Source: an archaeon (GTDB lineage: Archaea; Nanobdellota; Nanobdellia; Woesearchaeales; UBA9642). From it: a DNA stretch of 64,000 nucleotides. Location: positions 1 to 64,000 of the forward strand of contig JAGVGF010000001.1 of NCBI GenBank assembly GCA_020057295.1, written 5' to 3'. Positions 13,992-55,928 of this stretch are shown piece after piece. The translations under genes and the position numbers were made by a program. Within the stretch, counting starts at the first letter, position 1; each line of letters starts with the position of its first letter. Under the pieces are notes generated by a model. That model ran no database searches. It was not told where the DNA came from and saw only the letters and a list, made by a program, of their open reading frames with translations.

Positions 13992-16900
13992 ATGGTTAGT
14001 GATAGTATTAGAAAAAATTATATCGCTCTATTCCTATTAGTGATAGGTTTAGTCACATTCTCATACTTATTATTCTCACAATTTTCATTAACAGGATATG
14101 CTGCTTACGAACACAAAACTTCTAACAGTATATTATTATCATCGACGTTAAATTCTCAGAATAGTTATCTTGATTTAAATTCCTATAATCTTGCTAATGT
14201 TACTGCTGTAAGAATTACTGGGAAAGTTTATGGTGTTGGTAATGTAAAAATTTACTTAAACACTAGTAATGGTAATTATTTAATTTATTCTGGATCTTTG
14301 AATAGTAATAATGTTATTACTGGTTATGATATTTTAGATATTAATACTACAGAAAATGTTACCGATAATACTACATTTAATCAACCAATCACGATTTTAG
14401 ACATAATTAATACCGATAATACTACAGGAATTTTAGTCAATAATACTGAAAACGTTACTAATATTGTTGTTAATGTTACAGAAAACTTTACAGCTAATAT
14501 TACTCAGAATATTACAGAAAATATTAGTGAAACAAGTAACGAAACCGTGCTTAACATAACTGAGAATGTTACTCAAGAAATTATTACTAACATAACATTG
14601 ACTAATACTACAGAGAATACAACTAATGATGTCATTGTTAATGTTACAGAGAATGTTACTCAAGAAATTGTTGTCAATGTTACCGAGAATGTCACTCAAG
14701 AAGTTATTACTAATGTTACTGAGAATATTTCTTCAGAGTTTTTATTAACATTTAACAATGTGTGTTCTGAATCTTGCGTTCTTCCTCGTGTGAATGTTTT
14801 AGGATTAACGATTATTAGTGATAACGCTTCTGTAAATATTACTAACTTAACTTATGATTATATTGTTATAGAGTTTGAGAATATTAGTCAAATCAAATCA
14901 TTAAACAATACTGTGTTAATACTTAATAAAGATCAGAATATAGTATTAAATCTTAGCGAGTTTTTTACTGGAAAAATTTTATTTGATGTTACAAGTTCAC
15001 AAGGATATACTACAAACATTAGTGGTGAATTATTAACTATAACTGCTGTTAAAGCTGGCGATTGGCCTATAAAAATTTATGCTGCAGGAAACAATGTTTT
15101 ATTGACGAGTGAAGAGTTTACTGTAAGAATTCTAGAGACTAATAAAACTAATAAGGTTACTTTATTGCGTAAAGTTAGTCATGCTGATAAAAAAGTTTAT
15201 TTAGAAAATAAACTTGGACTAAAACCTCAAAGAGGAGGACTTGGAATTCAAAGTCAAGGCAATAATAAAGTTTTGAAGGTTGATGACGTTTCTGTTGAAG
15301 AATTATTTGTTGAAAATGAAACAGGCAATTATACAATAAACGGATCAACAAGCGTAATTATTAGTGATGTAAATAATAAAAACATAATCAATATTGATGG
15401 ATTGAACACCATTGACGATCTGCAAAAGATTAATGTTAATGTTCTAGATATGGCCACACCCATAATCTACGTTCAATCCGTCAATATTACTAATGCAACA
15501 ATAACACTAGAGAAGAATGGAATCGTTGGTTCAATATTAACTTGTAACGATATTGATTATGATTCAAATACAGGAATTTGTTTGAATTGGCAAGGTTCAG
15601 AAATTCCTTTTATAGATAATGGAGATTCTATAACATTTACTGTTACACATTTCTCAGCATATGCTGGCGGTCAAGGTAATCAATCGCAAATGAATATTAG
15701 CGATGATACTGATATTTTAGTTCGCGGAGTTAATGTTCAAATCTTATTTTATGCAAATTATACTAATACTACTTCAGGAGTTTCGATAAATGGCACAGGG
15801 CTATATTGTCAAATACACTTTAATACAACAGGGACTTATGATGCTTATGTAAATATGACTTTTAATACGACGTCATTGATATATCAATATAATAATTCTT
15901 TTAGTACTTCAGGAATAATGTATTATCAAGTGTTATGTGATGGAACAGCATCAGGTTATGAACAATTAATTACACAAGATCCTTTTGCTGTTAGTCCTCC
16001 TCCAATAATACTTAATTCGTCTACTATTCCTTCAGGTTCATCAAATCCTAATCAAAACATTATAGGTTATTGTAACGCCACTATAAATGGTACAGGGGAT
16101 GTATCTTCTTATAACTATATATGGTATAGAAATGATTCTTTCAACACTTCTGGAACTATGAGAAATTATGGTTTAGCTTGGAGTCTTAGTTCAGCAAGTT
16201 CTAATATTTGGTATGATATTGATATTTCTCGTGATGGTTCTAAACAAGTAATGTGTGGGAGTAGTGTTGGTGTTAAATACTCGAGTGATTATGGTCAAAC
16301 GTGGTCTGTGATTAACAGTAGTACTCCAAATTGGCGTGGAATAGCATTGTCTGATGATGGAAAATATATTACTGTAGTCGTTCTTTCAGGATATGTGTAT
16401 GTTTCCAATGATACTGGAACTACATGGACTGCTCTTAAAACTGATAATCCTAGAAGTTGGGAAGGAATTGAAATGTCTTCTAATGGAAGTATCCAACTAT
16501 TAGGACAAAACAGCGGATATGTATATGTGTCTACAGATTATGGTATTACTTTTAATGCTGTAAATACGGGGAATATTTTAAACTGGAATAGTGTTGCTGT
16601 ATCAAGCAATGGAAGTATAATGGCCGCAGCCGCTAATGTCGGAAATATCTGGACTTCTTATAATAATGGTTCTACTTGGACTTCTAGAGATAGTTCTCGT
16701 GCATGGTCTGGCTTGGCAATGTCTAGTGATGGAACAAAACTTGTTGCTGGAGTTTATGGGGGTTACTTGTATACTTCAAATGATTCTGGAGTTACATGGA
16801 CACCAAGAGCAACTGATGCAGTCCGTAATTGGATAGGCACAGCAATATCGGATGATGGTAAAAACATGTATGCTAATGCTTTTGGAAATTATATGTATAC

Positions 16901-19900
16901 TTCAAATGATTATGGAGTAACGTGGATACCTACTATTAGTACTGTTACAAGAAATTGGTATGATGTTGCTACATCGGCCAATGGAACATTCTCCACAGGA
17001 GTGTATAATGGAGGAGCATACAGCATCAATGATAATTTCTCCTCTAATGTAAGCGCACCAATTAACATTTTAACCGGTTTAGGAGAAAATAATGTTTATG
17101 ATAATTGGACGTTTAGTTGTCAAGCTAACTCTTCATCAAGTTCAACAAGTTCATGGATGAATAGCAGCGCAGTAAATGTTATTGGCGGATGTAGAAATGT
17201 ACTAACTTCTAATCAAGTAATTACATTGACTCAGAATTTATCAATTAATGATTTGTCATGTTTCAACGTGACTGCTTCAAATATTACACTTGATTGTAAC
17301 GGATACGCTATAATTGGCAATGATAGTACAAATGCTTACGGAATATATTCAAATTCAACAAATACTACTGTAAAGAATTGTGTGATTAAAGGATTCCAAT
17401 ACGATGTGTACTTTAATAGTTCTAAGAATGGTTTAATAAAAGACAATATTATTAATACTACAGCAGGAAATGGTATATATCTATTATTTGGTTCTGATAA
17501 TAATACGGTAAATAATAATACCATATACAGTAGCACCTATAATGGGAATCACGGTATCGACATTTCTTCTAGTAGTAATAATACCATCATCAGTAACACT
17601 ATGTATGCTTCTAATTCTAATGCTGCAGGATTGTATTTATCTAATACTCCTTCAGGAAATATTATACTTAATAATATCATATACGCTAATCTTACTGCTG
17701 GCTCGATGGGTGGTATTCAGCTTGCCGGAGCAAGTTATAATATCATAGATAATAACACCGTCTATGGTGGAGCCTCTAGTCCTGCAATTAATTATTATTC
17801 AGGAACTAATAATTATAATAATTTAACTAATAATGCTTTATCTGGAACAACTATCAATGTGATACTAATGTCTGGAGCATCTTATAATAATATAATAAAT
17901 AACACATTGAATACTACTGGTTCTGGTGTTATGTTGCAAGTCCAGGGATCTTCGGCTAGTAACGTATTTAGAAATAATACATTTAATAATTTTGGTACAG
18001 CATCTACAATGCAATTTACTAGCGGTAATAATAATGTAATAACAGGCAATTATATGAATTCAACTAATGGAGGCGGTACTGCTGTAATATATGTAAGCGG
18101 TGCTATAACAGGATTTAATATTACTAATAATACTATATATCATCAAACAGATTATGTAAAGAAAGGCATATACTTTAATAGTGTAACTTCAGGATTTATT
18201 TTGGATGGTAATAATATTACTACTATAGGATATGGTGATGGATTGTATATTTCTGGTAGTAGTGGGACTCAAACAGTGCATAATATTACTACTAATAATT
18301 ATATCAACAATCTTCCAATATATTATTATGATGGTACATATAAGGCTTGTCCTAATAATCAAGTATTGGAGTTTAATCCTAACAATCAAAATATTTCACA
18401 CTTACAATTTAGGGGCTGTACTAATATTACTATTACTGGATTAAACACTACAGGATTTGATTCAGTAACTATATGGGATTCTAGTTATATTAACGTAACT
18501 AATAGTATAATTAAAAATTATTACGGATTATCTTTCCTAGGTTCATCCAACGATTCGTATATTACAAATAATACTATTTATGGCTCTATCTCTGGATCTT
18601 CAGGAAATGCTCTAACTCTAGGAACACGCATGATTGTAAGATATAATACCATAGTTGTCTCTGGAGGAAGTTCTGATGGTATTGTTATGTCTAATATAGG
18701 ATATAATATTATTGACAATAACACTATCACGACTAGTGGTAGCGGTAGTAGTGATGGTATAATTCCATCAGGATTGTATAATAATATCACTAATAATTAT
18801 ATAACTACTTCTGGAAGTACAAGCCATTGTATATATCCTAATTCTAATGATTTAATTTATAATAATACTCTAATAAGTTATAGTTGCTGTAATGGAGGCG
18901 TTATGGCAGTATATGGTTCAAATAATAATATAACCTATAATACTATCACTGCTAGTTCCTCAACTTACACAGTAACATTTTCTGGCGCACAAAATAATTA
19001 TTTTACTAATAACAATATAACTGTTCTTAATGGTGTAGTTTATGCTTTAAGAGTTGATTCTAATGCAAATAACAATATTTTCAAAAATAATACAATCAAT
19101 GTATCGAGCAATATTAATGCAATATATTTGACTACATCACACAATAATACATTCTCTTATAACTCTTTAAACACAAGTAATGGTATTAGTATCTATATTC
19201 TTAATGGTCAAAATAATACATTTAGCGATTTTACACTAACTAACAAAAATATAACTTCAGAATACAGTTCTATATTAAACAATAATTCATTAACAAATGT
19301 TACAATCAGCCCAACCAATATCTACTTTACAGGCGGGAATAATACTACTAATATGATGCCAATCAAATGGTGGATTGATGTTTATGTTAATAATACTGCT
19401 AGTGGAAGTGCATTCCCTGGAGCTAATGTACTTATTAGAGATGTAAATAATAATTTAACGTTTAATGGAACTACTGATAGTACAGGATACGCTACTGTCA
19501 GACCTAACGCTATAGAATATATTTTAACTGCAAACAAAAATTATACCAGCTATAATAATTACACAGTATCTACAGCTACAGGCACCGGTGATAGTCAGAG
19601 TGTTAATGTAACTGGAAACACAATAATAATATTAAATTCTTTACAATTAGCATGTAACTTAGTTATTGGTCAATCTATAATATTAACAGGAAATCTTTCA
19701 GCTAACGCTTCCAATTGTTTCAACGTAACTGGAAACAATGTTGTAATTGACTGTGCAGGATATAGTATAACTGGAAATAATTCATTAGGAACATCAGGAA
19801 TTTACTCTACAGCAACAAATACTACTGTGAAGAATTGTGTGATTAACGGATTTTTATATGGGATATACTATTTTGGTGCAAGTAATGGCACAATATATAA

Positions 19901-22900
19901 TAATAATATCACTAACAATCTTTCTTCTAGTAGAAGTATTTATCTTAAGACAGGTTCTTATAATAACGTTAGTAATAATAATATCTCACAATCTGGAACA
20001 GTAGCTGATACAATCATAGAATTGAATGGTCAATTCAATGATTATATAATAAACAATGATATACGTAGTACTTCGTCTTACTATCCGACTTATGATTTAA
20101 GATTGACACCAGCAAATAACACTTTAATACAATATAATCGTTTCACTCACTCTGCTGGAAGTTCAGGCTTAATTCTATATGTTGGCGGTTCTAATCCTGG
20201 TTCAAATAATGATATGATTTATGATAACAATATTACCGACAATGGTGGTGCTACTGTGATAGGCGTATATAGTGGAACTAATAACACTTTTAGTCGTAAT
20301 ATAGTCACAGGTGTCTCTAGTAGTGTCATATATATACAAAGCGTTAATGGAGATTATTTCTATAATAATACATTCCCTAAATTATGGATGTATTCTTCAA
20401 ATAATCATTTATTTGTAAATAATACATTCAAAGGTACAGGCGCCAACGGTATAGAAATTCAAGATTCTAGCAATAATAACTTTACATTAGGTAATTCTAC
20501 AGGCTCATACGCTATAAAATTCAGTTATACAAGTTCTGGATCAATTAATAATACATTTACAAATATTACTTTGAGTGCAACAACTACTCACATATTATTA
20601 CTTGCACAAAGTGTTAATAATTCATTTTATTACAACAATCTAACAGGTAGTGGAACATGGATCAATAATTCAAATTCTACTAACACATTTAATACAACAG
20701 TCAATGGCGTTCCACAAGGTAATATTTATACTAACATTACAGCTTATGATGTGTCTGACTCTGATGGAGATAAATGGGCTGATGGTGGAGGACAATATCC
20801 ATTAAACTCATCATTCGCACCAACACAATGGGCAGGATATGGTAACGATTATGGACCATATACATCAAAAATCGGATGTGGTGTAATGCGTACAGGAAAT
20901 ACTATAATCACATTAACACAGAATCTTTCAATCAACAGTTCAACATGCTTCAACATCACTTCAGCAAATGTAACAATAAATTGTAATGGATTTAGTATAA
21001 CTGGAAATTTCACAGCTAACATTTATGGAATATATAGTAACCAATTTAATACTACTATTAAGAATTGTGTTATTAATGGATTTATGGATAATATACAGTT
21101 GAATAGTGCAAATAATAGTTTGATATATAATAATACTTTAAATGGTGCTTATGCAGTCAGTTCCTATCGCGGTAATATTTATTTGACTGCTGTTAATAAT
21201 GTTACTATACTAAATAATCGACTTAATATGACTGCTAGTAACTATGAAGCTAATGTGATGTTTGGTGGCGGTGGTGTTACTGATAATGTGTGGATTGATA
21301 GTAATATTATGAATGGTAGTGGAACTTATGCTAGCAACATCAGATTTCAAGGCGGAACTATTAATAAAATTTTTGTCAATAATAATACTATTTTAATGAA
21401 TTGTACTAGTCAAAATTGCAACGGTATCATTGCAGGCGGTTCAAATCCTTCATTAATTAATATAACTAACAATAATATTACTCTTTATCCTAGTTCTAGC
21501 GCATCAAGCAGTTCTCTACTAATAAGCATTCCTGGTATTTTAAATATTCTAAATAATACATTAAATGTTGCTGGTCCGAATTCTCCTGTAGATCTTTTCT
21601 CTATTACTCCATCTTCTGGTTCAAACATAAGTAATAATATAATATCCACAACTAATAGCTATAAGAATTTTATACTACCTCCTTATGCTTGGTCCAATGT
21701 AAATATCAGTAATAATTATATAAATAATAAACCAATAATTGCCTATGGTTCACTTGGTGTTACTTGTCCTAATAATCTAGTTATAAGCAATTTTACATAT
21801 AATTCTACGACCAATTATTCTTATGTAGGGTTCAGTAGTTGTACAAATGTAACACTAAATAATTTAGCTTATAGTGGAGGATTGGGTGTTTATTCATCAA
21901 CTCTTAATATATATAATTCTACATTTACTAACATGACAGACAGAGGTATTTATTTCGTTTCTGGAACGTCAGCATTAATGAATAATAATACTTTTTATCA
22001 AGATGGATATTTTCCTGCTGTGTCAAGTTATCTTATATGGTCACAATATACTAATTTTAACTTTACAAATAATTATGTATACTATAATAATATCTATTCA
22101 CCAATAATACTTTATACTTCAGGAACGGGTTACGTATACAATAATGTGATAGATGTTAATAATTCTAATGGAGGCATATTGTTGCTTTTACAAAATGGTG
22201 CCAATAGCAGGGTATATAATAATATTATTACCGCCTATAATAATTCTAACTCTATGGGTATGAGATTGCAAAGTGGCTCATCGCCTTCAGCATATAATAA
22301 TACACTGATAAATCTCCCTATTGGCATATCCTTCCAGTCTACATCCAATATTTCTTGTTATGATAATACTATAATAAATTCAACAACTTATGGTGTTTAT
22401 TATTATGGTAATGGTGCCTCATCACAACTTTCAAGCATATACAATAATATTATCACTCCTTATAGCGGTCAAGGAATATATTTGGAACATTCAACGTACA
22501 ATGTTACTATATATAATAATATCATAAATGGTACTCCTGGATACGGCATATATTTTACATTCGTTAAAGTAAATATTAGCGTGTACAATAACACTATATC
22601 TTCAAAAGCAAACTCTGCTGCAGGAATATATTATGACTCAAATCCTCCTACTGCTTATCCTAATTATAATGTGATAATAGCTAACAACAATATTACACTA
22701 AATGGTACATCATCTAATGGTATATACTATAATAATGGTGCAAATGCTAGTAGAGTATATGGTAACACTATAGATATGAATAATGCTGCAGGATCAAAGG
22801 CAATATATATTTCGCAAACAAATACCAGAGATAATGTATTCTACTATAACACTATACTTAATTCTCCAACATGGGTAAGTAACGCAAATGAGACGAATCA

Positions 22901-25900
22901 ATTTAACACTACAGTTAATGGTCAAGCTCAAGGAAATACTTATCCTAATATAACTTCTTATGATATTAATGATAATAATTTTGATGGTTATGGTGAGACT
23001 GGAACTCAGTATCCTGTAAATGCAACAATATTCCCAACAAAATGGGTTGGTGTTGGTGCTGATTATGGTCCCGCAACTAATAAGTTTGGATGTGGAACAA
23101 TAAGTACAACCAATGTGGTATTAACACTATCTCAAAATTTATCTGTTAATAGTTCAACATGTTTCAATATAACAGCACGAAATGTTACAATAGATTGTAA
23201 CGGATTTAGTATTACTGGAAATAATAGTGCTGGAACTTATGGTATATATACAAATTCGACAAATACTACAGTAACGAATTGTGTTATTAGTAATTTCTCA
23301 ACCGGATTAGGAATAAACAGTTCATATGTTACAGTACGAAATAATACTCTCCGACAATCTATTAGTTATGGCTTGTATGTGTTTGCTGGTTCTAATATTA
23401 ATATCTCCGGGAACAATATAACTTCAAATGGTAATTCTATTACTTATTTTAAGAATGTATATAACTCTACATTTAGCAATAATTATCTTTATAATTATAC
23501 TACTAATCATTATTATATTGATTTAAATAGTAATGTAACATTCTTTAATATATTGAATAATTCTTTTGCGGGTACAGCTGTGTCTAGTAGTAGGATGGTT
23601 TCTATGTCGGCAATAACATCTAATATATTTATTGCAAATAATACTGCACTTATAACTGGTACTACTGGAACTTCAAATATTTTCGTAAAGTTATATGGTG
23701 GATCTTCTAATATAACTATTGATTCTAATAATGTTTCCTTCTACGGTTCTTCCACTGCTGGTGGCAATTATATTATAGAAGGAGGACAATCTTTGCCTTA
23801 TACTAATATATTAATTAAGAATAATACTTTTATTCTTTCTGGAGGAGTAGTTAATTATGTATTATACCTTAATTCTCATGGTGGAGGATCATACACTCTT
23901 ACTAGTAATACTATTTCTGTAAGTCAGAATAATTCTGGATTATATCTGTTAGCAGGATATGGTAGGGATTATAATATCTCTACTTCAAATCTAATTAATG
24001 GCAGACCCACACTGTTCTACCATCCAACTTATAATCCTTGCCCTAATAATCAAGTATTTACTAATAATACTTTTTCATTATTAGGCTTTGTTGGATGTAA
24101 TAATATTACTGTGTCCGGAGTAAATGTTAATAATACTGAGGGAGTATGGATTATTGCATCAAACATTACAATTCTTAATTCCAATTTTACTGATTCATTT
24201 GTAGGTGTTCACATCTCTGGCGGAGCATTAGCTAATATTACTAATAATGTTATTAGTGCTTATGTTATGCCTATATATATAAGTGGTAATGATGGTGCAG
24301 TGTCCAATCAATTCTTTTACAGAAATAATGTTACTGCTAAAACAGGAAGTATTCTCCAATATTACAGCACAGTTTCATCAATTAATTATATCGATAATGA
24401 CTTTTTATCCCTAACTGCAAATACTTTAGAAATCTCTAGTTCAATAAGCGATAAATTCATCAACAATCGTATAACTGCTCTTTCGGCATATTATCCTATA
24501 CTTTTTAGTAGTGCCAGTTATCTTAATTTTACTGGTAATAATTTAACAACTGGTACTGGCTATGGTATGTACTTCGCTGGCACTGTTTCTTACTCATCAT
24601 TTTATAATAATAATATTTTTTCTAGTTCATCTGCTATTCGTGTTGCTTCCCAACTCGTACATAATGTATTTTCAGGAGGTTCAATAAATGGTACTTATGG
24701 TATTCATCTAGCTAGTTCTTCATCGAATAATAACACTTTCAAAGGTATTAACATAACTGCTTCGATTGCAAATGTATATGTGGTATCTACATCATACAAT
24801 AATACGTTCTATTGGAACTACTTTAATGGTTCAGGAATATGGGTAAATAATAGTAATTCTACTAATTCGTTTAATTTTACTTTGAATAGTGTGTCTCAAG
24901 GTAATTATTATCCTAACATAACGTCTTATGATATTAATGATATGAATTTTGATGGATGGGGAGATGCAGGAACACAATATCCAATCAATGCAACAACATT
25001 CCCTACAAAATGGGCAGGAATTGGTGCAGATTACAATCCAGCAACTAATAAGTTTGGATGTGGAACAATAAGTACATCAAATATAGTTGCAACTATGAGT
25101 GTAAATATTTCAGTCAATGGTTCAACGTGCTTTACAATAACAGGTGTTAATGTAACGCTTGATTGTAATGGATATTCTATTATTGGAAATCAGACTACGA
25201 GTACGTATGGTATAATTGCTAACGCAAACAATACTGTAATAAGAAATTGTAATATACAAGACTTCTTTGTCGGGGTATATTATCAGACTGGAAAATCGCA
25301 TGGTCAAATCTACAATAATAATATTACGGTAAATGTTAGTATATCTAGCGGAGTAGCCGCAAGACTAGATGGTAATAATATAACCTTCTACAATAATACT
25401 GCTGCATCTGTAGGAAGTTCAGGAGCCTCTTATCCTGTTTTCATATCCGGAGGTTATGTTAATATCACAAATAATAATTTACGAACATCAGGTGGAGGTA
25501 CGAATAGTCATGCAATATTTATCTCTACAATAGTTGGTGGTGTTATAGATAGAAACAATATAAACGCAAGCGCGAGTGCCTCTAGAGGTATTTATATCGC
25601 TCAAGGTAGAGATTATAATATCACTAATAATATTATCTATGCTCCTTCGACCTACGAAGCAATATATTTACAGGATGTTCACAGAGTATTATTCTTAAAC
25701 AATAATCTATCAACAACAGGAAATACTGCGATAGATCTTAGTTCTGGAGGAGGATCAACAAACGCTTCTGATAACAATTTCATCGGAGGTTCAATTACTG
25801 GAAAAATATTCTTTGAATATGATAGATGTATAAATAATACTTTTACAAACGTAACATTAAATTCAAGCAGTACTCATATTGATTTGACTGTAGGAAAATA

Positions 25901-28900: not shown

Positions 28901-31900
28901 TCCATCATTCCAAGATCCCGGACAATATAATGGAACAATAAATATTACGGGTACAAATGTTGCAGATAGCATAGTTAATATTTTTGTAAATGTTACAGCC
29001 AATACATCATGGTATATTGTTTCTCCAGTAAATAAAACCAATTCATTCACATTAAATCAGGCAGGAATATTAGCAAACATCACAATAAACAATACAGGTA
29101 ATAATCCATTGAACTTTACAATAAATTATAATATTGGTTATAACGCTGGGGGAGATTTGTGTTCAGGATATTATTGTCTCGGAACACCACAACCAGCCGG
29201 ATCAAATCCAACAAGCATACTTATACAAAAGAATAGTACAGGAACATTTAGTATAATTATTCCAGAAAGCACAGACAGTAAAACAAATGTGGGAGTAGAA
29301 GTAAACATCAGTAATGTTAACGCGACACCAACAGTTCTAACATCCATAATAGTATTTAATGTAACAAATCAGCCGCCACAATTAGTGTACTTGAACGCGA
29401 CACCAAATAATTATACAGAATTATATTATCCAATAGTCGTACAATCAATAATTACAGATGATGAACCAGAAACAGCAGTTATAGGAATGAATATATCATC
29501 AGTATACTTTAATATTACAAATCCACAAGGGACAGTCTATACCATAAACAGCACAAATATTACTGTCACAAACCTTACATTGCAAGGTGTAGCTGACAGG
29601 AAGAGATTTAATACATCATTCACAAATACCAATCTTGAGGGAATATACAATTTAACAGTATTCATTAAAGACAAATCAAATAATTATATTGCATCTAATA
29701 ATTATAGTTTCCAGGTTTTAGGATATACTACAGTAGGGATAACTACTAGTCAAAATATTACATCAAGCAATATTACACAATTACATGGAGAAATCGTAAA
29801 CAGTAATATTACAGTAACAATTACAGGATTAACAAACGCATATAACGCTAATATTACAGCCGTAACACCAAATGGATGGACTGTAACAACAACAAACATA
29901 GGTAATTTAACAGTTGGACAATTAGTCAATGGCACTCTTAATATCACATTGCCATTAGGAACAGTTCCAGGAACATATTCATTAACTCCTGTAGTTTCAT
30001 GGCAGAATGCTAATGGATCATTCAACAATAATACCGGATCACCATTTACAGTTATAGTAAATAATAATCCAGAAATAATTACCAATAATGTAATTAATAC
30101 AGTAATGAACCATAATAGCAATACCTCAATAATTATAGAAATTAACAGTACTGGCAATGTTAATTATGGTGATGGAACAAACCCTGCTTCGATAGTATTC
30201 GAGTCAGGAAATATTCCAATAGGATGGCTAAGCTTTGATAATACATTAACATTATTAACAAAAACATTAGGAATATTAACAAAGAATGTTACAAGAAATG
30301 TTACTGTATACTTGAACATTCCAAAAGGAACATTACCAGGAAACTACACAGGATTATTTAATATATCATCATTAAGTTATTCATACAATAAATATCAACA
30401 AGCAAACTTTACATTAACAATATTGATAGATTCTAATTCATGGAATGCAACAACATTATCTTCAACAAATGATTTCAGCCTGAATAGTGCAGGAAATATG
30501 GCGTCAGTAAACGTAACTAACGATGGTAACGGTAATTTAACATTCAACATAACATATCCAAATTATGGTGATACCGATTACAATTCATATACGAATTTAT
30601 TTAATATTAATCAGAATGTCAGCGGAACAATAGTTAATAGAGATAATATTACATTAGTGCCTGCTGCAAGTTCCATATTGTATGTGTATCAGACAGGCAG
30701 AAATATTACATTACAAAATGTTGGTATAAATGTTACAATAAACGTTAGCGGGACAGTGCGTAATGTTCCATTAATATTTAATATCACAGATCACAATCCT
30801 ATAATTTCTCAGATAACATTCTTAAATAACAGTAATGGACAAGATCAAAATTATACTGAATTAAATACACATATAACATTAAAATCTGTAGTGACTGATG
30901 ATAGAGATATTAACATAACAGCATTAACATTCAATGTTACAATGCCGAACAGTACTGTGATTACATTAATAGGTTCATCAACCAATGAAAATATACTATA
31001 TCAAGGACAATATGTATCGATGAATTTCACACAAGTATTTACTAATTCAAACATTTCAGGAGTATATGCTGTAACTTCTACAATAAAAGATTTAACAGGA
31101 CAGTACACGACAAGCAGTCCTTACTTGTTCAATGTACTAGGAGGAACAACATTAACAGTTACTCCAAACAGCACATTATATAATGCATCTAATGTAACAT
31201 TAGAAAATTCACAAAATATTACTGTAACATTAAACTTAACAAATGTTGGATATGTTACAGCACGTAATATTAACGTAACAGCAAATTTAACTAGTAATAA
31301 TAGTAATTGGATTGTATATCCTCTGAATTATAGTATTTATGTTTCACAAAATTCTACGACAGTATCACTAATAATTAATATTCCAGCAAATACTACACCA
31401 GGGATATATAATATTAATCCAGCAGTGTTCTGGAGCAATCCTAATAGCAGTATAGGATCATACAATTATGGTCTAATAAATATTAGTGTAGATTCTACAA
31501 AGATTGTAAGATTTAACACATATACTACAAATTATACTATTAAACACGGTACAACTAATATTACTGTATTGAGAATAGATTCTGTAGGTAATGATGATGC
31601 ATCAAACGTTATGATTACATTAATTAATACCCCTAATAATTTCACTGTAACAGCAAATCCTGGATCTATAAGTAGTATACCAAAAGGTGAGTATAGATCT
31701 GTTAATTTATCAATTACTCCAACGCAAGGATTAACTAATGGAACTTACACTTTCGATGTTAAAGTCAGAAATGATGGTAAACAGTATTATAGTGATAATT
31801 ATACCGTAACAGTTGTAGTTCCTGCAAGTTATGAATGGAATATTACTGCACGTAACGCTACATTAGTACATAATTCTAACTTTACATTACATGGTGTTTC

Positions 31901-34900: not shown

Positions 34901-37900
34901 AGTTTATAAGTGTAGTAATTGGTCATACACTAACGGAACATGTTCACAATTATATTGGACATTTATTCCATCAACATTAGGATTAGGATTTGTAACATTC
35001 AATATTACAGGATTCTCAGCATACGTTCTAGCATCAGCAGCAAGTCCAGCATATGTTGTCGGTGATAGTATATGTTCAGTAAATGCTGGTGAGAGTAATA
35101 GTAATTCGCCAACTGATTGTCCATCATCTGGTTCATCAACCACCACAACCACAGTAGTTAGTAGTTCTGGAGGCGGAGGAAGTAGTAGTTCTAGTAGTGG
35201 TGGTTCAACAGCAATAAGAACATCTGAAGGTATAAGTGAAAATAAATTAAAAGAAATATTATCATTAATGTTAAATCAAGATACAGGAGTTGCACTTGAT
35301 ACTTCAAGAATAAGTCGTGATTTATATCCTGGAGAATTTGCAGAAACTGTATTAAAAATTAAAAATAAATTAAATGATTCCGTATCATTAAAGATAACTG
35401 TTAGTGGAGCAATAACAGATATGGTTCATATTCCAGTACCATTCCAAGATGTTGCAATTGGTGAAACCATAAAAAATAATATATCATTTGCAATAAAACC
35501 AGATGCAAGACCAGGATTATATAGTGGAGAAATTACAGTACTTAGTGGTTCTGATCAAACACTTGCAAAAATACCTGTAGAAATAAGGATATTAGAGATT
35601 AAAGACCGTTTGTTGGATATGAAAGTTACTCCTATAACTGAGAATATTAACCCTGGAGATACAATAAAAGTTCAAATTGATGTGTTTAATTTAGGAACTA
35701 CAAAGCGTGTAGACTTACAAGTGAAGTTAAAACTTGTAGATCCAGAAACAATGGAATCTTACTCTGAAACTGAAGAGAGTATGGCTATTGAAACATCATT
35801 ATCTGTTATTAAACCATTAAAAGTCCCACAAAATATTCCTTTAGGAAGATATATTATACAAGGTGAAGGATCATATACTAATGGTCAGAGTTCTATGATT
35901 ACTCGAAGCATTGCTACAATTCAAATTGTTAGACCATGGTATAATTATATGATTGTTGGTGTTGTTCCTGTATGGATAGTATTATTAGGATTAGCATTTA
36001 TATTAATTAATATATTATTATTTGAGTGGTATGAAAAGAGGAGAGCTTCTAGGATGAAGTATCATGTTCCTGTAGATTTACATACACTGCCAATGCCTGG
36101 TCCTAGGGTGTCATTCTTAGGTAATATTGCTGATACTAATATAAGAACATTTGTTGAAGTTGATAAGTTACAGACTCATACAATAATTGCAGGTTCAACT
36201 GGTTCTGGTAAGTCTATTGCTGCACAAGTTATGGTTGAAGAAGCATTAAAGAATAATGTTGCTGTAATAGTATATGATCCAACAGCTCAATGGACTGGTT
36301 TCTTAAGAAAGTGTAATGAACGTAGAATGTTAAAAACTTATAGAGATTATGGTATGAGTGAAAGCGAGACTCGATCATTCAATGGAAATATTAGAACAAT
36401 AAGGGATGCTAGAGAGAAATTAAATATTACAAAATTATTGAAACCTGGTGAAATAACAATATTTGATGTTAGTAAATTAGAACCATCACAAATGGATTTG
36501 TTTGTTTCTAATACTGTTAAGCAAGTATTCGAAGCAAATCTTGAAGAATCTCCTCAATTAAAATTGTTAATAGTATACGATGAAGTACACAGATTATTAC
36601 CTAAATTCGGAGGATCTGGTGAAGGGTTCTTACAAATAGAGCGTGCAGTCAGAGAATTCAGAAAATGGGGTGTTGGTATCTTATTAATTTCACAAGTATT
36701 ATCAGACTTTATCGGACAAATTAAGGCGAATATTAATACAGAAGTACAAATGAAGACTCGTGATGAAGATGATCTTAATAGGACAAGAGTAAAATATGGT
36801 GATGATTTCCTAAAGATATTAGTTAAGAGTAATGTTGGAACTGGAATGATTGAGAATTCTGAATATAATAAAGGCAGACCTTATTTCATAAGTTTCAGGC
36901 CTATTTTACATTCAGTACAAAGATTGTCTGATGAAGAATTGAAGAAGTATGAAGAATACAATGGAAGGATAGATACTATAGAATGGGAAATTATGCAATT
37001 AAAAGATTATGATTATGACATATTTGATATTTCACTAGAGTTGAAGTTAGCTTCTGATAAATTAAAAGCTGGCGCGTTTAATATGGTAGATATATATCTT
37101 GAAGGAATTATCCCTCGATTAAAGAGTGCATGGGAAAAGATTGGAAAGAAACCAAAACCTTATGTTAAAGAATTAATTTCGGAAAAGGAATTAAAATCTT
37201 ATAAGGAAAAAACTAAAGATTTAGAAGGACACAAACTATTTGATAAGTCATTATTCATAAAACCATTGAGTAAGGAAGTGTTGATTGTTCAGGAAAAACG
37301 TATTGAGACTAGTATGAAATTGTTTGAGAATAACATTTCTAAAGGCATGCCTGGATTATTATTAACAAGAACAGGTCCTGATGCAATGAGGCAACAGCAT
37401 CCTAAGTTGAAAGATACTAAGATGATTTGGTTGAGTACTCAGATTAATAAGGAAAATGTCATATCTCCAAATATGATAGAACAAATGTATGAGGCTATGA
37501 ACTTGTTTATTAGTGAATGTAAAGGAGAAGAATGTGTAATACTACTAGATGGATTATCTGTAATAATCAATAATACATCATTTGATAGAACATTAAATTT
37601 ACTTGTGCATCTGAAAGATTCTACAGCAGGAAAGAATGTTACAGCTTTAATTCCTATAAATACAGACATATTGAAACGTGAGGATAAAGAACAGTTAGAA
37701 TCAGAGTTTAAGACTGTTAATGGGTGGAGAAGTGATGAAGAAATAGAGCAAGAGGATAAAGAATTGAAAGTTGAATCAAAGAAAAATTTACTAAAAGAAT
37801 CCAAATCAGTAAAAAATAATTTTATTACTACTGAAAATAATTATGAAGGCATGCAATTGATAGATTTATTAGATTTAGCAAAGCTAAAAGATGATACTAA

Positions 37901-38159
37901 GGAATTAAAACAAATATTCCATGTTATTAAATCAAAATATGATTCATTATCAGATAATTATAAGAAGGAATATCAAGAAAGTGTTGAATCTTTGGGTAGT
38001 AAATTGTACGGTGCTAATAAAATTAGTACTAGTATTAGAAGAGTTAAACATACTAAAAATAAAAAATTAATTGTTAAACGTTTAAAAATTAAACATAATA
38101 ATGTATCGCATAAAATAAAAAAGAAGTTAGTTAATAAGAAGACAAAAAAGAAGAGATAA
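13992..38159 (+). CDS. Giant (8055-residue) cell-surface protein fused to a cytosolic HerA-type ATPase and DUF835 domain
   Basis: One unbroken frame of 24 kb. In order: signal/anchor helix (about 11-31, ending SLTGYAAYE); an Asn-Val-Thr repeat tract (about 115-250); Ig-like segments; a BNR/Asp-box propeller (about 728-1020); NosD-type beta-helix modules starting near Cys 1067, 1888, 2296, 3034, 3690 and 4057 plus a truncated one at 4449; many Ig-like/NEW3-like domains (about 4520-7020); a Gly/Ser/Thr linker (about 7044-7078); two more Ig-like domains; a transmembrane helix (about 7317-7343) followed by EKRR; a HerA/DUF87-type ATPase with Walker A GSTGSGKS (7401-7408) and Walker B LLIVYDE (Asp7530, Glu7531); a DUF835 domain (about 7750-7915, VILLDGLSVII); and a Lys/Arg tail. 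It probably spans the membrane once, with the ATPase inside. Adhesion, predation or contact-dependent transport are possible functions, none proven. Confidence 0.9.
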   Translation: MVSDSIRKNYIALFLLVIGLVTFSYLLFSQFSLTGYAAYEHKTSNSILLSSTLNSQNSYLDLNSYNLANVTAVRITGKVYGVGNVKIYLNTSNGNYLIYSGSLNSNNVITGYDILDINTTENVTDNTTFNQPITILDIINTDNTTGILVNNTENVTNIVVNVTENFTANITQNITENISETSNETVLNITENVTQEIITNITLTNTTENTTNDVIVNVTENVTQEIVVNVTENVTQEVITNVTENISSEFLLTFNNVCSESCVLPRVNVLGLTIISDNASVNITNLTYDYIVIEFENISQIKSLNNTVLILNKDQNIVLNLSEFFTGKILFDVTSSQGYTTNISGELLTITAVKAGDWPIKIYAAGNNVLLTSEEFTVRILETNKTNKVTLLRKVSHADKKVYLENKLGLKPQRGGLGIQSQGNNKVLKVDDVSVEELFVENETGNYTINGSTSVIISDVNNKNIINIDGLNTIDDLQKINVNVLDMATPIIYVQSVNITNATITLEKNGIVGSILTCNDIDYDSNTGICLNWQGSEIPFIDNGDSITFTVTHFSAYAGGQGNQSQMNISDDTDILVRGVNVQILFYANYTNTTSGVSINGTGLYCQIHFNTTGTYDAYVNMTFNTTSLIYQYNNSFSTSGIMYYQVLCDGTASGYEQLITQDPFAVSPPPIILNSSTIPSGSSNPNQNIIGYCNATINGTGDVSSYNYIWYRNDSFNTSGTMRNYGLAWSLSSASSNIWYDIDISRDGSKQVMCGSSVGVKYSSDYGQTWSVINSSTPNWRGIALSDDGKYITVVVLSGYVYVSNDTGTTWTALKTDNPRSWEGIEMSSNGSIQLLGQNSGYVYVSTDYGITFNAVNTGNILNWNSVAVSSNGSIMAAAANVGNIWTSYNNGSTWTSRDSSRAWSGLAMSSDGTKLVAGVYGGYLYTSNDSGVTWTPRATDAVRNWIGTAISDDGKNMYANAFGNYMYTSNDYGVTWIPTISTVTRNWYDVATSANGTFSTGVYNGGAYSINDNFSSNVSAPINILTGLGENNVYDNWTFSCQANSSSSSTSSWMNSSAVNVIGGCRNVLTSNQVITLTQNLSINDLSCFNVTASNITLDCNGYAIIGNDSTNAYGIYSNSTNTTVKNCVIKGFQYDVYFNSSKNGLIKDNIINTTAGNGIYLLFGSDNNTVNNNTIYSSTYNGNHGIDISSSSNNTIISNTMYASNSNAAGLYLSNTPSGNIILNNIIYANLTAGSMGGIQLAGASYNIIDNNTVYGGASSPAINYYSGTNNYNNLTNNALSGTTINVILMSGASYNNIINNTLNTTGSGVMLQVQGSSASNVFRNNTFNNFGTASTMQFTSGNNNVITGNYMNSTNGGGTAVIYVSGAITGFNITNNTIYHQTDYVKKGIYFNSVTSGFILDGNNITTIGYGDGLYISGSSGTQTVHNITTNNYINNLPIYYYDGTYKACPNNQVLEFNPNNQNISHLQFRGCTNITITGLNTTGFDSVTIWDSSYINVTNSIIKNYYGLSFLGSSNDSYITNNTIYGSISGSSGNALTLGTRMIVRYNTIVVSGGSSDGIVMSNIGYNIIDNNTITTSGSGSSDGIIPSGLYNNITNNYITTSGSTSHCIYPNSNDLIYNNTLISYSCCNGGVMAVYGSNNNITYNTITASSSTYTVTFSGAQNNYFTNNNITVLNGVVYALRVDSNANNNIFKNNTINVSSNINAIYLTTSHNNTFSYNSLNTSNGISIYILNGQNNTFSDFTLTNKNITSEYSSILNNNSLTNVTISPTNIYFTGGNNTTNMMPIKWWIDVYVNNTASGSAFPGANVLIRDVNNNLTFNGTTDSTGYATVRPNAIEYILTANKNYTSYNNYTVSTATGTGDSQSVNVTGNTIIILNSLQLACNLVIGQSIILTGNLSANASNCFNVTGNNVVIDCAGYSITGNNSLGTSGIYSTATNTTVKNCVINGFLYGIYYFGASNGTIYNNNITNNLSSSRSIYLKTGSYNNVSNNNISQSGTVADTIIELNGQFNDYIINNDIRSTSSYYPTYDLRLTPANNTLIQYNRFTHSAGSSGLILYVGGSNPGSNNDMIYDNNITDNGGATVIGVYSGTNNTFSRNIVTGVSSSVIYIQSVNGDYFYNNTFPKLWMYSSNNHLFVNNTFKGTGANGIEIQDSSNNNFTLGNSTGSYAIKFSYTSSGSINNTFTNITLSATTTHILLLAQSVNNSFYYNNLTGSGTWINNSNSTNTFNTTVNGVPQGNIYTNITAYDVSDSDGDKWADGGGQYPLNSSFAPTQWAGYGNDYGPYTSKIGCGVMRTGNTIITLTQNLSINSSTCFNITSANVTINCNGFSITGNFTANIYGIYSNQFNTTIKNCVINGFMDNIQLNSANNSLIYNNTLNGAYAVSSYRGNIYLTAVNNVTILNNRLNMTASNYEANVMFGGGGVTDNVWIDSNIMNGSGTYASNIRFQGGTINKIFVNNNTILMNCTSQNCNGIIAGGSNPSLINITNNNITLYPSSSASSSSLLISIPGILNILNNTLNVAGPNSPVDLFSITPSSGSNISNNIISTTNSYKNFILPPYAWSNVNISNNYINNKPIIAYGSLGVTCPNNLVISNFTYNSTTNYSYVGFSSCTNVTLNNLAYSGGLGVYSSTLNIYNSTFTNMTDRGIYFVSGTSALMNNNTFYQDGYFPAVSSYLIWSQYTNFNFTNNYVYYNNIYSPIILYTSGTGYVYNNVIDVNNSNGGILLLLQNGANSRVYNNIITAYNNSNSMGMRLQSGSSPSAYNNTLINLPIGISFQSTSNISCYDNTIINSTTYGVYYYGNGASSQLSSIYNNIITPYSGQGIYLEHSTYNVTIYNNIINGTPGYGIYFTFVKVNISVYNNTISSKANSAAGIYYDSNPPTAYPNYNVIIANNNITLNGTSSNGIYYNNGANASRVYGNTIDMNNAAGSKAIYISQTNTRDNVFYYNTILNSPTWVSNANETNQFNTTVNGQAQGNTYPNITSYDINDNNFDGYGETGTQYPVNATIFPTKWVGVGADYGPATNKFGCGTISTTNVVLTLSQNLSVNSSTCFNITARNVTIDCNGFSITGNNSAGTYGIYTNSTNTTVTNCVISNFSTGLGINSSYVTVRNNTLRQSISYGLYVFAGSNINISGNNITSNGNSITYFKNVYNSTFSNNYLYNYTTNHYYIDLNSNVTFFNILNNSFAGTAVSSSRMVSMSAITSNIFIANNTALITGTTGTSNIFVKLYGGSSNITIDSNNVSFYGSSTAGGNYIIEGGQSLPYTNILIKNNTFILSGGVVNYVLYLNSHGGGSYTLTSNTISVSQNNSGLYLLAGYGRDYNISTSNLINGRPTLFYHPTYNPCPNNQVFTNNTFSLLGFVGCNNITVSGVNVNNTEGVWIIASNITILNSNFTDSFVGVHISGGALANITNNVISAYVMPIYISGNDGAVSNQFFYRNNVTAKTGSILQYYSTVSSINYIDNDFLSLTANTLEISSSISDKFINNRITALSAYYPILFSSASYLNFTGNNLTTGTGYGMYFAGTVSYSSFYNNNIFSSSSAIRVASQLVHNVFSGGSINGTYGIHLASSSSNNNTFKGINITASIANVYVVSTSYNNTFYWNYFNGSGIWVNNSNSTNSFNFTLNSVSQGNYYPNITSYDINDMNFDGWGDAGTQYPINATTFPTKWAGIGADYNPATNKFGCGTISTSNIVATMSVNISVNGSTCFTITGVNVTLDCNGYSIIGNQTTSTYGIIANANNTVIRNCNIQDFFVGVYYQTGKSHGQIYNNNITVNVSISSGVAARLDGNNITFYNNTAASVGSSGASYPVFISGGYVNITNNNLRTSGGGTNSHAIFISTIVGGVIDRNNINASASASRGIYIAQGRDYNITNNIIYAPSTYEAIYLQDVHRVLFLNNNLSTTGNTAIDLSSGGGSTNASDNNFIGGSITGKIFFEYDRCINNTFTNVTLNSSSTHIDLTVGKYNTFYYNNFTGTGTWITNNNETNQFNTSVNGVAQGNFYPSINSYLVYDNNQNGWAETGSQYPFNNVTVSSKWTGIGADYGPATTNFGCGNLGTANTNYILPNNVSVNSSTCFIITAQNVTLDCAGYSISGNTSAETSGVYSTMFNTTVKNCKINGFNYGIYFNATNNGTIQNNNINATQTSGYGIYLRNGVNYTNVLNNTVSTNANSGIGILLQSNSNMNSVYNNTISTWVSNSHAILLNQNCQYNLIYNNIVSTNDSGSIGIRLQNSNDYNVVYSNIISTTGSSSHGIHLVSGGSRYNSFYNNNLIINGSTAYGVYLSTIQAYNNFTSNNISSAQSYGMLLDSGAYDNMISLGSINGTIAVILTFSSKNNIFTNITLNGSTSNVYADSTSGNNTFYYNNFTGSGMWVNNSNETNSFNTTVTGIAQGNYYSNINSYDINDYIPDGWGDAGTQYPINAATIPTKWTGLGADYGPATTKFGCGTITQPDRTYNLTSDLNINGATCFIIAAQNVTIDCKNYNIIGNNTPYTYGIYSNQYFYTAYNCSNIINFTDTVEQPGTIGNATTNNRLITDKLAGIPYSFLHNVTVNNTGNSSMLNLTIVEIVSSRGAKIQSVADYSSNCTTDLKQNTYCYKTYNITTVVSLTAGQQYPAVTFQVNWSNHNSTNVTQTSSFDIIIQANPQMYVSSTNLLLNSGFSNPNITTLTVDSIGNVDLGTLSTQADSVFVTMTGSIPSSWIKFSSSDSYWNNTCGSDCWDLLYMNSPLDLKLNTTITNYSTATYTGKINITSYIASSVQTYKEINITINVTSSISTSNNNINQTTNISNINSNIVTINNNGNAPLTDVVVTYYNNTLPASWIIINSNSSSWNSSGNKWSGIVEGSSAYLNVSLNVQSYTPGTYNGYFTINTTEGGSSRINISTTINPQISHNTTLTPNLHHGTTNIIPLTINSNGNAKATSINTTFITGTLPSTWISLSYGSNNGQSVNIGDIIEGNSKDVNITVVIPSFQDPGQYNGTINITGTNVADSIVNIFVNVTANTSWYIVSPVNKTNSFTLNQAGILANITINNTGNNPLNFTINYNIGYNAGGDLCSGYYCLGTPQPAGSNPTSILIQKNSTGTFSIIIPESTDSKTNVGVEVNISNVNATPTVLTSIIVFNVTNQPPQLVYLNATPNNYTELYYPIVVQSIITDDEPETAVIGMNISSVYFNITNPQGTVYTINSTNITVTNLTLQGVADRKRFNTSFTNTNLEGIYNLTVFIKDKSNNYIASNNYSFQVLGYTTVGITTSQNITSSNITQLHGEIVNSNITVTITGLTNAYNANITAVTPNGWTVTTTNIGNLTVGQLVNGTLNITLPLGTVPGTYSLTPVVSWQNANGSFNNNTGSPFTVIVNNNPEIITNNVINTVMNHNSNTSIIIEINSTGNVNYGDGTNPASIVFESGNIPIGWLSFDNTLTLLTKTLGILTKNVTRNVTVYLNIPKGTLPGNYTGLFNISSLSYSYNKYQQANFTLTILIDSNSWNATTLSSTNDFSLNSAGNMASVNVTNDGNGNLTFNITYPNYGDTDYNSYTNLFNINQNVSGTIVNRDNITLVPAASSILYVYQTGRNITLQNVGINVTINVSGTVRNVPLIFNITDHNPIISQITFLNNSNGQDQNYTELNTHITLKSVVTDDRDINITALTFNVTMPNSTVITLIGSSTNENILYQGQYVSMNFTQVFTNSNISGVYAVTSTIKDLTGQYTTSSPYLFNVLGGTTLTVTPNSTLYNASNVTLENSQNITVTLNLTNVGYVTARNINVTANLTSNNSNWIVYPLNYSIYVSQNSTTVSLIINIPANTTPGIYNINPAVFWSNPNSSIGSYNYGLINISVDSTKIVRFNTYTTNYTIKHGTTNITVLRIDSVGNDDASNVMITLINTPNNFTVTANPGSISSIPKGEYRSVNLSITPTQGLTNGTYTFDVKVRNDGKQYYSDNYTVTVVVPASYEWNITARNATLVHNSNFTLHGVSGQNNQNTELTVTSYSNVPIFFTNILTGVVKDAGIMNVINPTKTLQPLQSYNITLNHTAPANNNNYTGVLTIDDGQSATDINILYGSHLANLTINSITPNISLRAGDIISINSSIVYEGSPVTGNLTPIIIVNGTTCTLNSTSFVGNYFITNCSLPSALDASYHSLRMNVDYSTALGVIPLTSTQINGLYYKDVTNPNVQIIVLDSVENGGSITISVNTTDNTVIDKVIAQVTTPVGVIKNFTLSNTNNATIYNITLNSSTNLSELGIFNVRYIVNDTTGNVNSTQTTSLEIYSLRTFSGVLKDLNNIPFVVNFTLTNGLTTINFSTNSSGHYNVTLYARIYNISMIFSTYNITIYDAPLFNVSTLMNLDRVTSSDVTSQLVGAIRGFVVETQMPVTSMIVINFGSDIVTSKDNLRVYQCGGWNYTSRICSSYWWQQLDNQVDKINNVVSASIPVFANTTSAFVLSEIPSNPTPILNLPIKTVSMDINHSSSKTAFLEVQSIGTAAINNIYASCTSGTICTNGFGLLTTNISSLPIGTFAYMNVTVTVPTYQDPGLYTGTMSVIGGTASDTFTLNVNVPSLVLYNYTLNNNYLNAGSQDTGTFTNLRINNTGNAALIINLTANSSDITFSESGFTISKNSYKDISLYYTAPANIGLYYYNISIINPSLATQNFNLSLNVSHQIDITSLTPTQSLYANDTITLKANAMNGLSFVITNVTWNITVNGSVCTNLQSLYSSAQGLWIVTCNVPSVADRTNHTLRVSGYFDGQYSYDTYPIIYVDTFPPSLVNVTDNAAKTGGTIQINSTAVDDSNISTASATIISPIGATINPIVTLLNKTIVSEYVFTELGDYNISYTVTDANNNTLTTSKIFEIYQPITFTGNVFKGNGQGLSNLTFKLYRRSGDLTEQFSTGNNGLYSQVIRNRTYSVVSIDYGSTNILLDNVRLANYVNQFNLDPVNTSNIAIADTSSVVTGIAVNTNISTTGNVTFTYNGIFNGNPSNLKVYKCSNWSYTNGTCSQLYWTFIPSTLGLGFVTFNITGFSAYVLASAASPAYVVGDSICSVNAGESNSNSPTDCPSSGSSTTTTTVVSSSGGGGSSSSSSGGSTAIRTSEGISENKLKEILSLMLNQDTGVALDTSRISRDLYPGEFAETVLKIKNKLNDSVSLKITVSGAITDMVHIPVPFQDVAIGETIKNNISFAIKPDARPGLYSGEITVLSGSDQTLAKIPVEIRILEIKDRLLDMKVTPITENINPGDTIKVQIDVFNLGTTKRVDLQVKLKLVDPETMESYSETEESMAIETSLSVIKPLKVPQNIPLGRYIIQGEGSYTNGQSSMITRSIATIQIVRPWYNYMIVGVVPVWIVLLGLAFILINILLFEWYEKRRASRMKYHVPVDLHTLPMPGPRVSFLGNIADTNIRTFVEVDKLQTHTIIAGSTGSGKSIAAQVMVEEALKNNVAVIVYDPTAQWTGFLRKCNERRMLKTYRDYGMSESETRSFNGNIRTIRDAREKLNITKLLKPGEITIFDVSKLEPSQMDLFVSNTVKQVFEANLEESPQLKLLIVYDEVHRLLPKFGGSGEGFLQIERAVREFRKWGVGILLISQVLSDFIGQIKANINTEVQMKTRDEDDLNRTRVKYGDDFLKILVKSNVGTGMIENSEYNKGRPYFISFRPILHSVQRLSDEELKKYEEYNGRIDTIEWEIMQLKDYDYDIFDISLELKLASDKLKAGAFNMVDIYLEGIIPRLKSAWEKIGKKPKPYVKELISEKELKSYKEKTKDLEGHKLFDKSLFIKPLSKEVLIVQEKRIETSMKLFENNISKGMPGLLLTRTGPDAMRQQHPKLKDTKMIWLSTQINKENVISPNMIEQMYEAMNLFISECKGEECVILLDGLSVIINNTSFDRTLNLLVHLKDSTAGKNVTALIPINTDILKREDKEQLESEFKTVNGWRSDEEIEQEDKELKVESKKNLLKESKSVKNNFITTENNYEGMQLIDLLDLAKLKDDTKELKQIFHVIKSKYDSLSDNYKKEYQESVESLGSKLYGANKISTSIRRVKHTKNKKLIVKRLKIKHNNVSHKIKKKLVNKKTKKKR
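14330..14735 (+). repeat. Asn-Val-Thr (N-glycosylation sequon) repeat tract in the giant protein
   Basis: About 130 residues are made largely of degenerate units such as ENVTQEIVVNVT and ENVTQEVITNVT. Nearly every unit carries an N-x-T/S sequon, which implies dense N-glycosylation once exported. The DNA is correspondingly repetitive (GTTAATGTTAC, GAGAATGTTACTCAAGAA), which can expand or contract by slippage. Confidence 0.8.
16170..17060 (+). repeat. BNR/Asp-box beta-propeller region of the giant protein
   Basis: About seven units of roughly 43 residues carry Asp-box motifs such as SSDYGQTW, SNDTGTTW, SNDSGVTW and SNDYGVTW. Each pairs with a strand like WRGIALSDDGKYI. This is the sialidase/VPS10/YCF48 type of propeller, here inserted in the extracellular part before the beta-helix modules. 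Confidence 0.8.
17190..27560 (+). repeat. Six complete and one truncated NosD-type beta-helix modules
   Basis: Each module opens with a cap of the form C-x-(20-25)-[LN]SxN-x-S-T-C-F-x-[IV]-T, then [IV]DCNGYSI-GN and TTVKNCVINGF. Degenerate parallel beta-helix rungs rich in Asn and YNN follow. Modules 2-6 close with NTTVNGxxQGN, an Asp-rich DINDxNxDGxGD loop, QYPxN and W-G-G-DYGPAT--FGCG, which runs into the next cap. Module starts (Cys codons) are 17190, 19653, 20877, 23091, 25059, 26160 and 27336. Lengths vary (about 370-820 residues) and the last unit is only the cap. Confidence 0.85.
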
Positions 38160-48870: not shown

Positions 48871-48872
48871 AA

Positions 48873-51236: not shown

Positions 51237-51249
51237 GAGATAAATTAAT

Positions 51250-54522: not shown

Positions 54523-55105
54523 AATAATATTATTATCTATATTATTATGTATATCTCTAGATTTAACACTAGCTGCCGATCCAACTCCTGTATCGAGGCA
54601 AAATGTTTGGGACAGGCAAAATTTGGGTGCACAAAACATATTTTTTACTAACTGGGGAAGATATAATAGATACACAGATATAATCGCTAATGAGCAACTA
54701 TTTTATCCTGTAGAACCTTGGGAGATTGAAGTTTGCACTAAAGATTTAAGCAGCGATGTTACTTTGAATCTTGGAGACGCAACACCTTCAGGTTTATCTA
54801 ACGGAGCATTATACAGTGATATTGCTACGGTGCAAGCATATAGAAGAACACCACTCAACGCCACGATAGATAATAAATATTTGTATGAAATATCATGGTA
54901 TTTTCATCCACAATCAGCAAACATGTTTTATTACATAAATATAACAGGACCAAGTGGCGAGGAAGTTGTTATAGATAAAGGAAGAGCAACATCAAGGGCA
55001 GGGGATTTTAGTTATAAAGCATTGTACTCTAACAGTACGTATAATAAAGTAAAAATAAAATATAAGAATAGCGTCATTGATAATATACCAATAATAATAA
55101 AATGA
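54497..55105 (+). CDS. Small secreted protein of the envelope operon
   Basis: This 202-residue exported protein has a signal peptide (SRNKIILLSILLCISLDLTLAA) and then a beta-rich domain with few sequons and one Cys. The frame extends upstream to GTG 54473, but ATG 54497, 6 nt after GAAGGTAGTG, is the best start; a further ATG lies at 54506. It overlaps the A2 stop by 26 bp, and its TGA overlaps the next ATG (ATGA), so translation is coupled on both sides. The mature N-terminus begins ADPTPVSRQNVWDRQ. No family recognised. Confidence 0.7.
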   Translation: MAQMTSRNKIILLSILLCISLDLTLAADPTPVSRQNVWDRQNLGAQNIFFTNWGRYNRYTDIIANEQLFYPVEPWEIEVCTKDLSSDVTLNLGDATPSGLSNGALYSDIATVQAYRRTPLNATIDNKYLYEISWYFHPQSANMFYYINITGPSGEEVVIDKGRATSRAGDFSYKALYSNSTYNKVKIKYKNSVIDNIPIIIK

Positions 55106-55890: not shown

Positions 55891-55928
55891 TTTATTTTTG
55901 AATATTAATTTGATGTATGGTGTATACT

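Follow-up and report, generated by a model that had tools for sequence, protein, structure and literature searches.

The window analysed here, meaning the whole stretch of 64,000 nt, comes from an archaeon of the Woesearchaeales/UBA9642 (GCA_020057295.1, contig JAGVGF010000001.1, positions 1-64,000, forward strand). It harbors a giant gene whose product comprises, in order, an N-terminal hydrophobic segment, ~7,300 extracellular residues, one transmembrane (TM) helix, a HerA-type ATPase, a DUF835 domain and a basic tail. A gene for a coiled-coil protein, c0, follows. The features are listed below with window coordinates, and residues refer to the giant protein.

13992..38159, + strand: giant SPEARE-like membrane HerA protein, 8055 aa (ORF and translation)
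14022..14078, + strand: N-terminal hydrophobic segment of residues 11-29, either a signal peptide or a signal anchor (hydropathy)
17235..27534, + strand: seven right-handed beta-helix (Beta_helix/NosD) modules, 66-75% identical in DNA (Pfam), starting at 17235, 19692, 20922, 23136, 25104, 26205 and 27381
29787..30005, + strand: best NEW3 (NPCBM_assoc) domain of an Ig-like repeat region (Pfam, E 1.1e-20)
35289..35927, + strand: two juxtamembrane Ig-like domains, residues ~7100-7312 (family alignment, AlphaFold2)
35970..36053, + strand: TM helix, residues 7327-7354 by AlphaFold2, 7321-7339 by hydropathy
36117..37160, + strand: HerA/FtsK-superfamily ATPase core, residues 7376-7723 (Pfam, Foldseek)
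36192..36215, + strand: Walker A GSTGSGKS, residues 7401-7408
36579..36584, + strand: Walker B, Asp7530-Glu7531
37296..37709, + strand: DUF835 domain, residues 7769-7906 (Pfam)
37992..38156, + strand: Lys/Arg-rich helical tail, residues 8001-8055 (composition, AlphaFold2)
38183..39379, + strand: c0, 398-aa coiled-coil protein, 23 bp downstream of the giant gene

A first-pass annotation had described one uninterrupted frame with a signal segment, a single TM helix, intact Walker motifs, a DUF835 domain and a Lys-rich tail, and all of these were recovered. The frame contains no internal stop, hydropathy detects only the two listed segments, both Walker motifs are intact at the residues given, DUF835 is matched with an E of 1.6e-21, and Lys and Arg account for 40% of the final 55 residues. 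An AlphaFold2 model of residues 7077-8055, built with 45 relatives (mean pLDDT 83.5), shows two Ig-like domains and one long TM helix, followed by a confidently predicted ATPase, DUF835 and an extended helical tail.

The assignment of the ATPase to the HerA/FtsK type also holds. Pfam matches DUF87/HerA from residue 7376 (E 6e-14), and the top 31 Foldseek matches of the core model (pLDDT 90) are HerA or HerA-domain proteins, with a best E of 7e-12 and TM-scores of ~0.43-0.49 by query length against HerA structures. Identity as a type IV secretion system (T4SS) coupling protein was rejected, since there are only weak cross-hits, among them a TrwB profile match (E 1.5e-4), and the conjugation coupling protein TcpA ranks 32nd, behind the HerA structures. 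Against the curated NCBIfam HerA equivalog the protein scores 27.8 bits (cut-off 970), and against the CedD profile 43.5 bits (E 1.7e-11; cut-off 600). The rank of HerA among the structures, together with equivalog scores far below cut-off, indicates a HerA-like protein on a distinct membrane-anchored branch of the HerA/FtsK superfamily. Among the 45 relatives 31 residues are invariant, nearly all within the motor and including REFRKWG. The window ATPase is very likely catalytically active.

Compared with the HerA translocase (Sulfolobus 4d2i; HerA-NurA 9x1l), the window protein shares the ATPase core fold, Walker A and B and an RKxG-type motif, but it is anchored in the membrane, has no recognised NurA neighbor and is only 13-16% identical. 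In addition, only ~45 residues, with two strands in the model, separate the TM helix from the P-loop, leaving too little room for a full N-terminal HAS barrel. Two further DUF87 genes (527 and 468 aa) are present in the same genome, and presumably one or both encode the canonical HerA, separate from the giant gene. Like the T4SS ATPases (VirB4, VirD4/TraG, TcpA) and CedD, which serve DNA or protein transfer, the window protein is a membrane-linked motor of the HerA/FtsK superfamily; unlike them it carries a giant ectodomain, scores far below the CedD cut-off and has no other T4SS gene recognised beside it.

Pfam places beta-helix/NosD stretches in the first half of the protein and NEW3 Ig-like domains in the second. 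The juxtamembrane Ig pair is the part of the ectodomain common to most family members. Residues 41-7310 contain 434 N-glycosylation sequons, compared to 253 +/- 13 in shuffled sequences, whereas the part after the TM helix contains 7, compared to 4.7 +/- 2. The confinement of the excess to residues before the TM helix supports an external ectodomain and a cytosolic motor. The earlier claim of a HerA/FtsK-superfamily ATPase joined covalently, through one TM helix, to a giant ectodomain is borne out by the domain order and the HerA fold.

The same annotation knew of no described system with this layout, and here it was mistaken. The SPEARE proteins of the Nanohaloarchaeota have the same plan (PMC6642349, PMC10266531); the window protein is neither unique nor undescribed. 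SPEARE of up to 8,553 aa are mostly extracellular, with a TM helix near the C-terminus; the intracellular part is the most conserved, and similar sequences were noted in Woesearchaeota (Hamm 2019, PMC6642349). A later study reinterpreted the intracellular part as a coiled coil preceded by a VirB4/TraG-like ATPase, found a second such ATPase gene directly downstream in two genomes, and reported a member of 9409 aa, SVXNc_0300 (Reva 2023, PMC10266531). The window protein shares with SPEARE a secretion signal, a giant, putatively adhesive ectodomain, a single TM helix near the C-terminus and a conserved cytosolic ATPase; a directly adjacent second ATPase gene is a likeness confined to several of its relatives. 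The differences are that the window ectodomain is built of beta-helix and NEW3/Ig-like domains, with no Pfam match to laminin-G or WD40, the adhesion domains characteristic of SPEARE being laminin-G and Ig-like; that DUF835 and a basic tail are present where SPEARE has only a coiled coil; that the neighbor is c0 rather than a second ATPase; and that the motor comes closest to HerA, the SPEARE motor being classed as VirB4/TraG by Reva et al. The VirB4 N-terminal domain (PF03135) is absent from the window protein and from six short partners of its relatives. The window protein is very probably a SPEARE-type membrane HerA, the proposed homology to the Nanohaloarchaeal proteins resting on published descriptions and shared Pfam cross-hits. 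Proteomics detected SPEARE, with ectodomain peptides and TM/cytosolic peptides in different gel size fractions (PMC6642349). Because of this split, the mature window protein may undergo cleavage, so that ectodomain and motor need not stay joined. The giant ORFs of Omnitrophota and others (PMC10066038) are likewise very large surface proteins of small host-dependent cells and proposed adhesins; they are described as poor in annotated domains and frequently rich in TM helices, and the available part of that report mentions no terminal HerA-type motor.

A search with the 367-aa motor core found a paralog of ~1,298 aa on another contig of the same genome, with a core about 58-59% identical. Relatives are present in all six genomes of the taxonomic family, at 26 loci in Woese-, Pace- and Nanoarchaeota and unassigned archaeal records, and in 79 of the 288 genomes of the order, mostly as ordinary proteins of 700-1,500 aa. 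The motor profile has matches in 67 of 371 sampled genomes of the phylum. Complete members generally share the N-terminal hydrophobic segment, the two juxtamembrane Ig-like domains, the TM helix and the motor, and vary in additional ectodomain and in the C-terminal tail, which typically has DUF5752-like and TPR parts. The full order of ectodomain, TM helix, HerA and DUF835 was found in three more genomes (G202, G047 and G218). The membrane-anchored HerA is a widespread family in the lineage, not a one-off fusion.

Giant ectodomains of 2,000-15,400 aa recur on several branches of the family, and 21 of the 69 motors in the tree have an ectodomain of at least 2,000 aa. A single origin of the giants was rejected by an AU test of the one-clade constraint (p 4e-5), in which many sizes are lower bounds, the ORF leaving the contig, and G045 was labelled standard. 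G045 encodes the nearest sister of the window protein (61% identity), and its ORF is cut by the contig end; the idea that the window gene is the recently enlarged counterpart of a sister of standard size was therefore dropped. A virus or plasmid origin was also rejected, since a motor-profile scan of viral contigs returned only remote matches (25-46% over short stretches). Eleven giants, including that of the window, are complete inside their contigs and span 2,958-15,809 aa. The largest, an ORF of 47 kb, lies on contig 41 of G028 (L049-L051, joined 7377-54803), a genome that holds two more giants, one of 9,165 aa and the other no shorter than 11,902 aa. The second largest, of 12,055 aa, lies on contig 23 of G332 (L090-L092, joined 5727-41891, - strand) and has an N-terminus resembling a winged-helix DNA-binding domain ahead of its first hydrophobic segment, which may reflect a misplaced start codon or a real cytosolic domain.

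Relatives of c0 adjoin the motor gene or lie a few genes away in most loci and share an invariant G-E-x-R motif. The window genome has exactly two c0 genes, each beside one of its two membrane HerA genes. Across the order, motor and c0 occur together in 72 genomes, the motor alone in 7 and c0 alone in 12, such that 72 of 79 motor-bearing genomes have c0 (Fisher p 2e-46, with kinship of the genomes ignored). This association makes it likely that the giant motor works with c0. The 12 genomes with c0 and no detected membrane HerA, such as G010 and G099, could have diverged motors, assembly gaps or another use for c0. Pfam, NCBIfam and PDB profiles match c0 only to generic coiled coils, and a role as an archaellum accessory protein was rejected on these grounds. 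Hamm et al. (2024, PMC11291902) describe coiled-coil proteins encoded in DPANN loci for type IV pili.

Standard loci frequently also encode a PKD-domain membrane protein, DUF5752 proteins, another large surface protein and a small protein named ribbon-helix-helix-like by appearance, with no Pfam match to that regulator type. The window genome has such a locus (L046:402-18000), containing the ~1,298-aa HerA with a TPR tail, DUF5752 proteins and c0, followed by a surface protein with a Big domain that is at least 3,703 aa long. From this set the window locus retains only motor and c0; its other neighbors include ProRS upstream and MetRS further downstream.

In several relatives a motor gene with a short ectodomain lies in tandem with a long or giant one, and an adjacent second ATPase gene is present in G028, G054, G210, G251, G110 and G231. 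No short-motor gene adjoins the window giant, whose downstream neighbor is c0. In six pairs, one of which (G088) has its genes on different contigs, the cores are 74-90% identical, compared to 21-33% for the Ig part and 22-38% for the TM part, values no higher than between unrelated members. Outside the G088 pair, codon third bases match clearly better across much of the core than in the flanks in four pairs, and less markedly so in the C97 pair of G028; in the C41 pair of G028 their identity leaps to 82-90% in a block. Alike cores with diverged outer parts suggest that the motors are kept alike through gene conversion, as one would predict if both subunits have to work in a single ring; recurrent recent duplication would be the alternative explanation. 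Walker B reads Asp-Gly in the long member of four pairs, all from one family (G251, G269, G110 and G231), but is an intact Asp-Glu in the short member. The long motors are:

L073:12755-15073, Asp-Gly long motor beside an intact short motor
L072:12923-15316, Asp-Gly long motor beside an intact short motor
L074:12499-14676, Asp-Gly long motor beside an intact short motor
L075:5077-7248, Asp-Gly long motor beside an intact short motor

A 296-aa HerA-like fragment without a TM helix lies between short and long membrane HerA genes in G021 (L077:3726-4613). The two motors of the window genome, ~58% identical and on separate contigs, show no paired-core pattern and look like separate machines. Since the giant gene often adjoins a short-ectodomain motor gene in relatives, a mixed ring in which not all six subunits carry a giant arm appears as likely as the six-armed hexamer first proposed.

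The best explanation of the whole, with about an even chance of being correct, is that the window encodes a Woesearchaeal SPEARE-type surface motor that adheres to a partner and performs ATP-driven work at the contact. HerA/FtsK-type cores are polymer translocases. The ATPase would assemble as a HerA-like ring beneath the membrane, the ectodomain would extend outward and bind a partner cell, and c0 would dock on the cytosolic ring as an adaptor or regulator. Where the cells meet, ATP hydrolysis would then drive a polymer, either protein or DNA, along the ring or through it, with DUF835 replacing the DUF5752/TPR tails of standard relatives as the regulatory module. Here we infer the ring, the substrate and the direction of transport. 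Contact-dependent translocation is a tentative reading, its chances slightly below even, and it counts against this reading that neither a channel for translocation nor a substrate, an effector or any further T4SS component was identified beside the window gene. A secretion "straw" into the host was proposed for SPEARE (PMC10266531). More broadly, and as tentatively, the family may form a DPANN-wide machine in which short and giant subunits of up to 15,809 aa share a mixed HerA ring with gene-converted motors and c0 inside. The inactive motor would be an arm carrier in one lineage, and the window copy a derived single-gene form serving both roles.

A mechanical or signalling adhesin, in which ATP is used to assemble, release, pull or report on the protein's own ectodomain with DUF835 and c0 as transducers, is a less probable alternative. 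The translocase activity of such cores, and a strict core conservation that matches the expectation for a translocase, argue against it. In its favor, c0 consists purely of coiled coil, neither a cargo nor a channel gene was found nearby in the window, and DUF835, a KaiC-like regulatory fold, occurs as an output domain in archaeal two-component regulators, where it is classed as an iKaiC-type domain (PMC5847659).

It is rather improbable that the protein is a membrane-tethered DNA-processing HerA for uptake or degradation of partner-cell DNA, as was proposed for SPEARE with its type III restriction-like domain (Hamm 2019, PMC6642349). The closest solved folds are indeed DNA-translocating HerA proteins, and ResIII cross-matches weakly (E 3e-4 for the window protein, E 4e-8 in G147). 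Nevertheless, ResIII is a generic P-loop cross-hit, Pfam recognises neither a nuclease domain in the protein nor a nuclease gene beside it, the genome carries its canonical HerA-like genes separately, and the nuclease interpretation is rejected by Reva et al. (PMC10266531). Finally, fusion of two or more genes through misassembly, conceivable for a repetitive ectodomain in a six-contig draft genome, is highly unlikely, because 64-75% DNA identity between modules disfavours easy collapse or joining of repeats, the juxtamembrane Ig-TM-motor junction is kept in 45 relatives, and nine further genomes have complete genes for giants built to this plan.

SPEARE proteins are leading candidates for host attachment and material exchange in DPANN. 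New here are c0 as a probable partner of the motor, the tandem motor pairs with alike cores and the four pairs whose long partner lacks the catalytic Glu. What was a single giant gene is now a family with a standard-sized form, a cytosolic partner that is nearly always present, a conserved motor amenable to biochemistry and natural active/inactive pairs. Its value lies less in the lone gene than in a family supplying partners, minimal versions and natural mutants; with members of ordinary size, the translocation hypothesis becomes testable on proteins of ~700 residues rather than 8,000. The window also contains, at 44035-58244, a run of large proteins (1611, 787, 1090, 262 and 775 aa) with no Pfam match and a 210-aa ORF; two proteins of this run start with a hydrophobic segment, GQ(I/V)T(V/I)F, resembling that of pilins.
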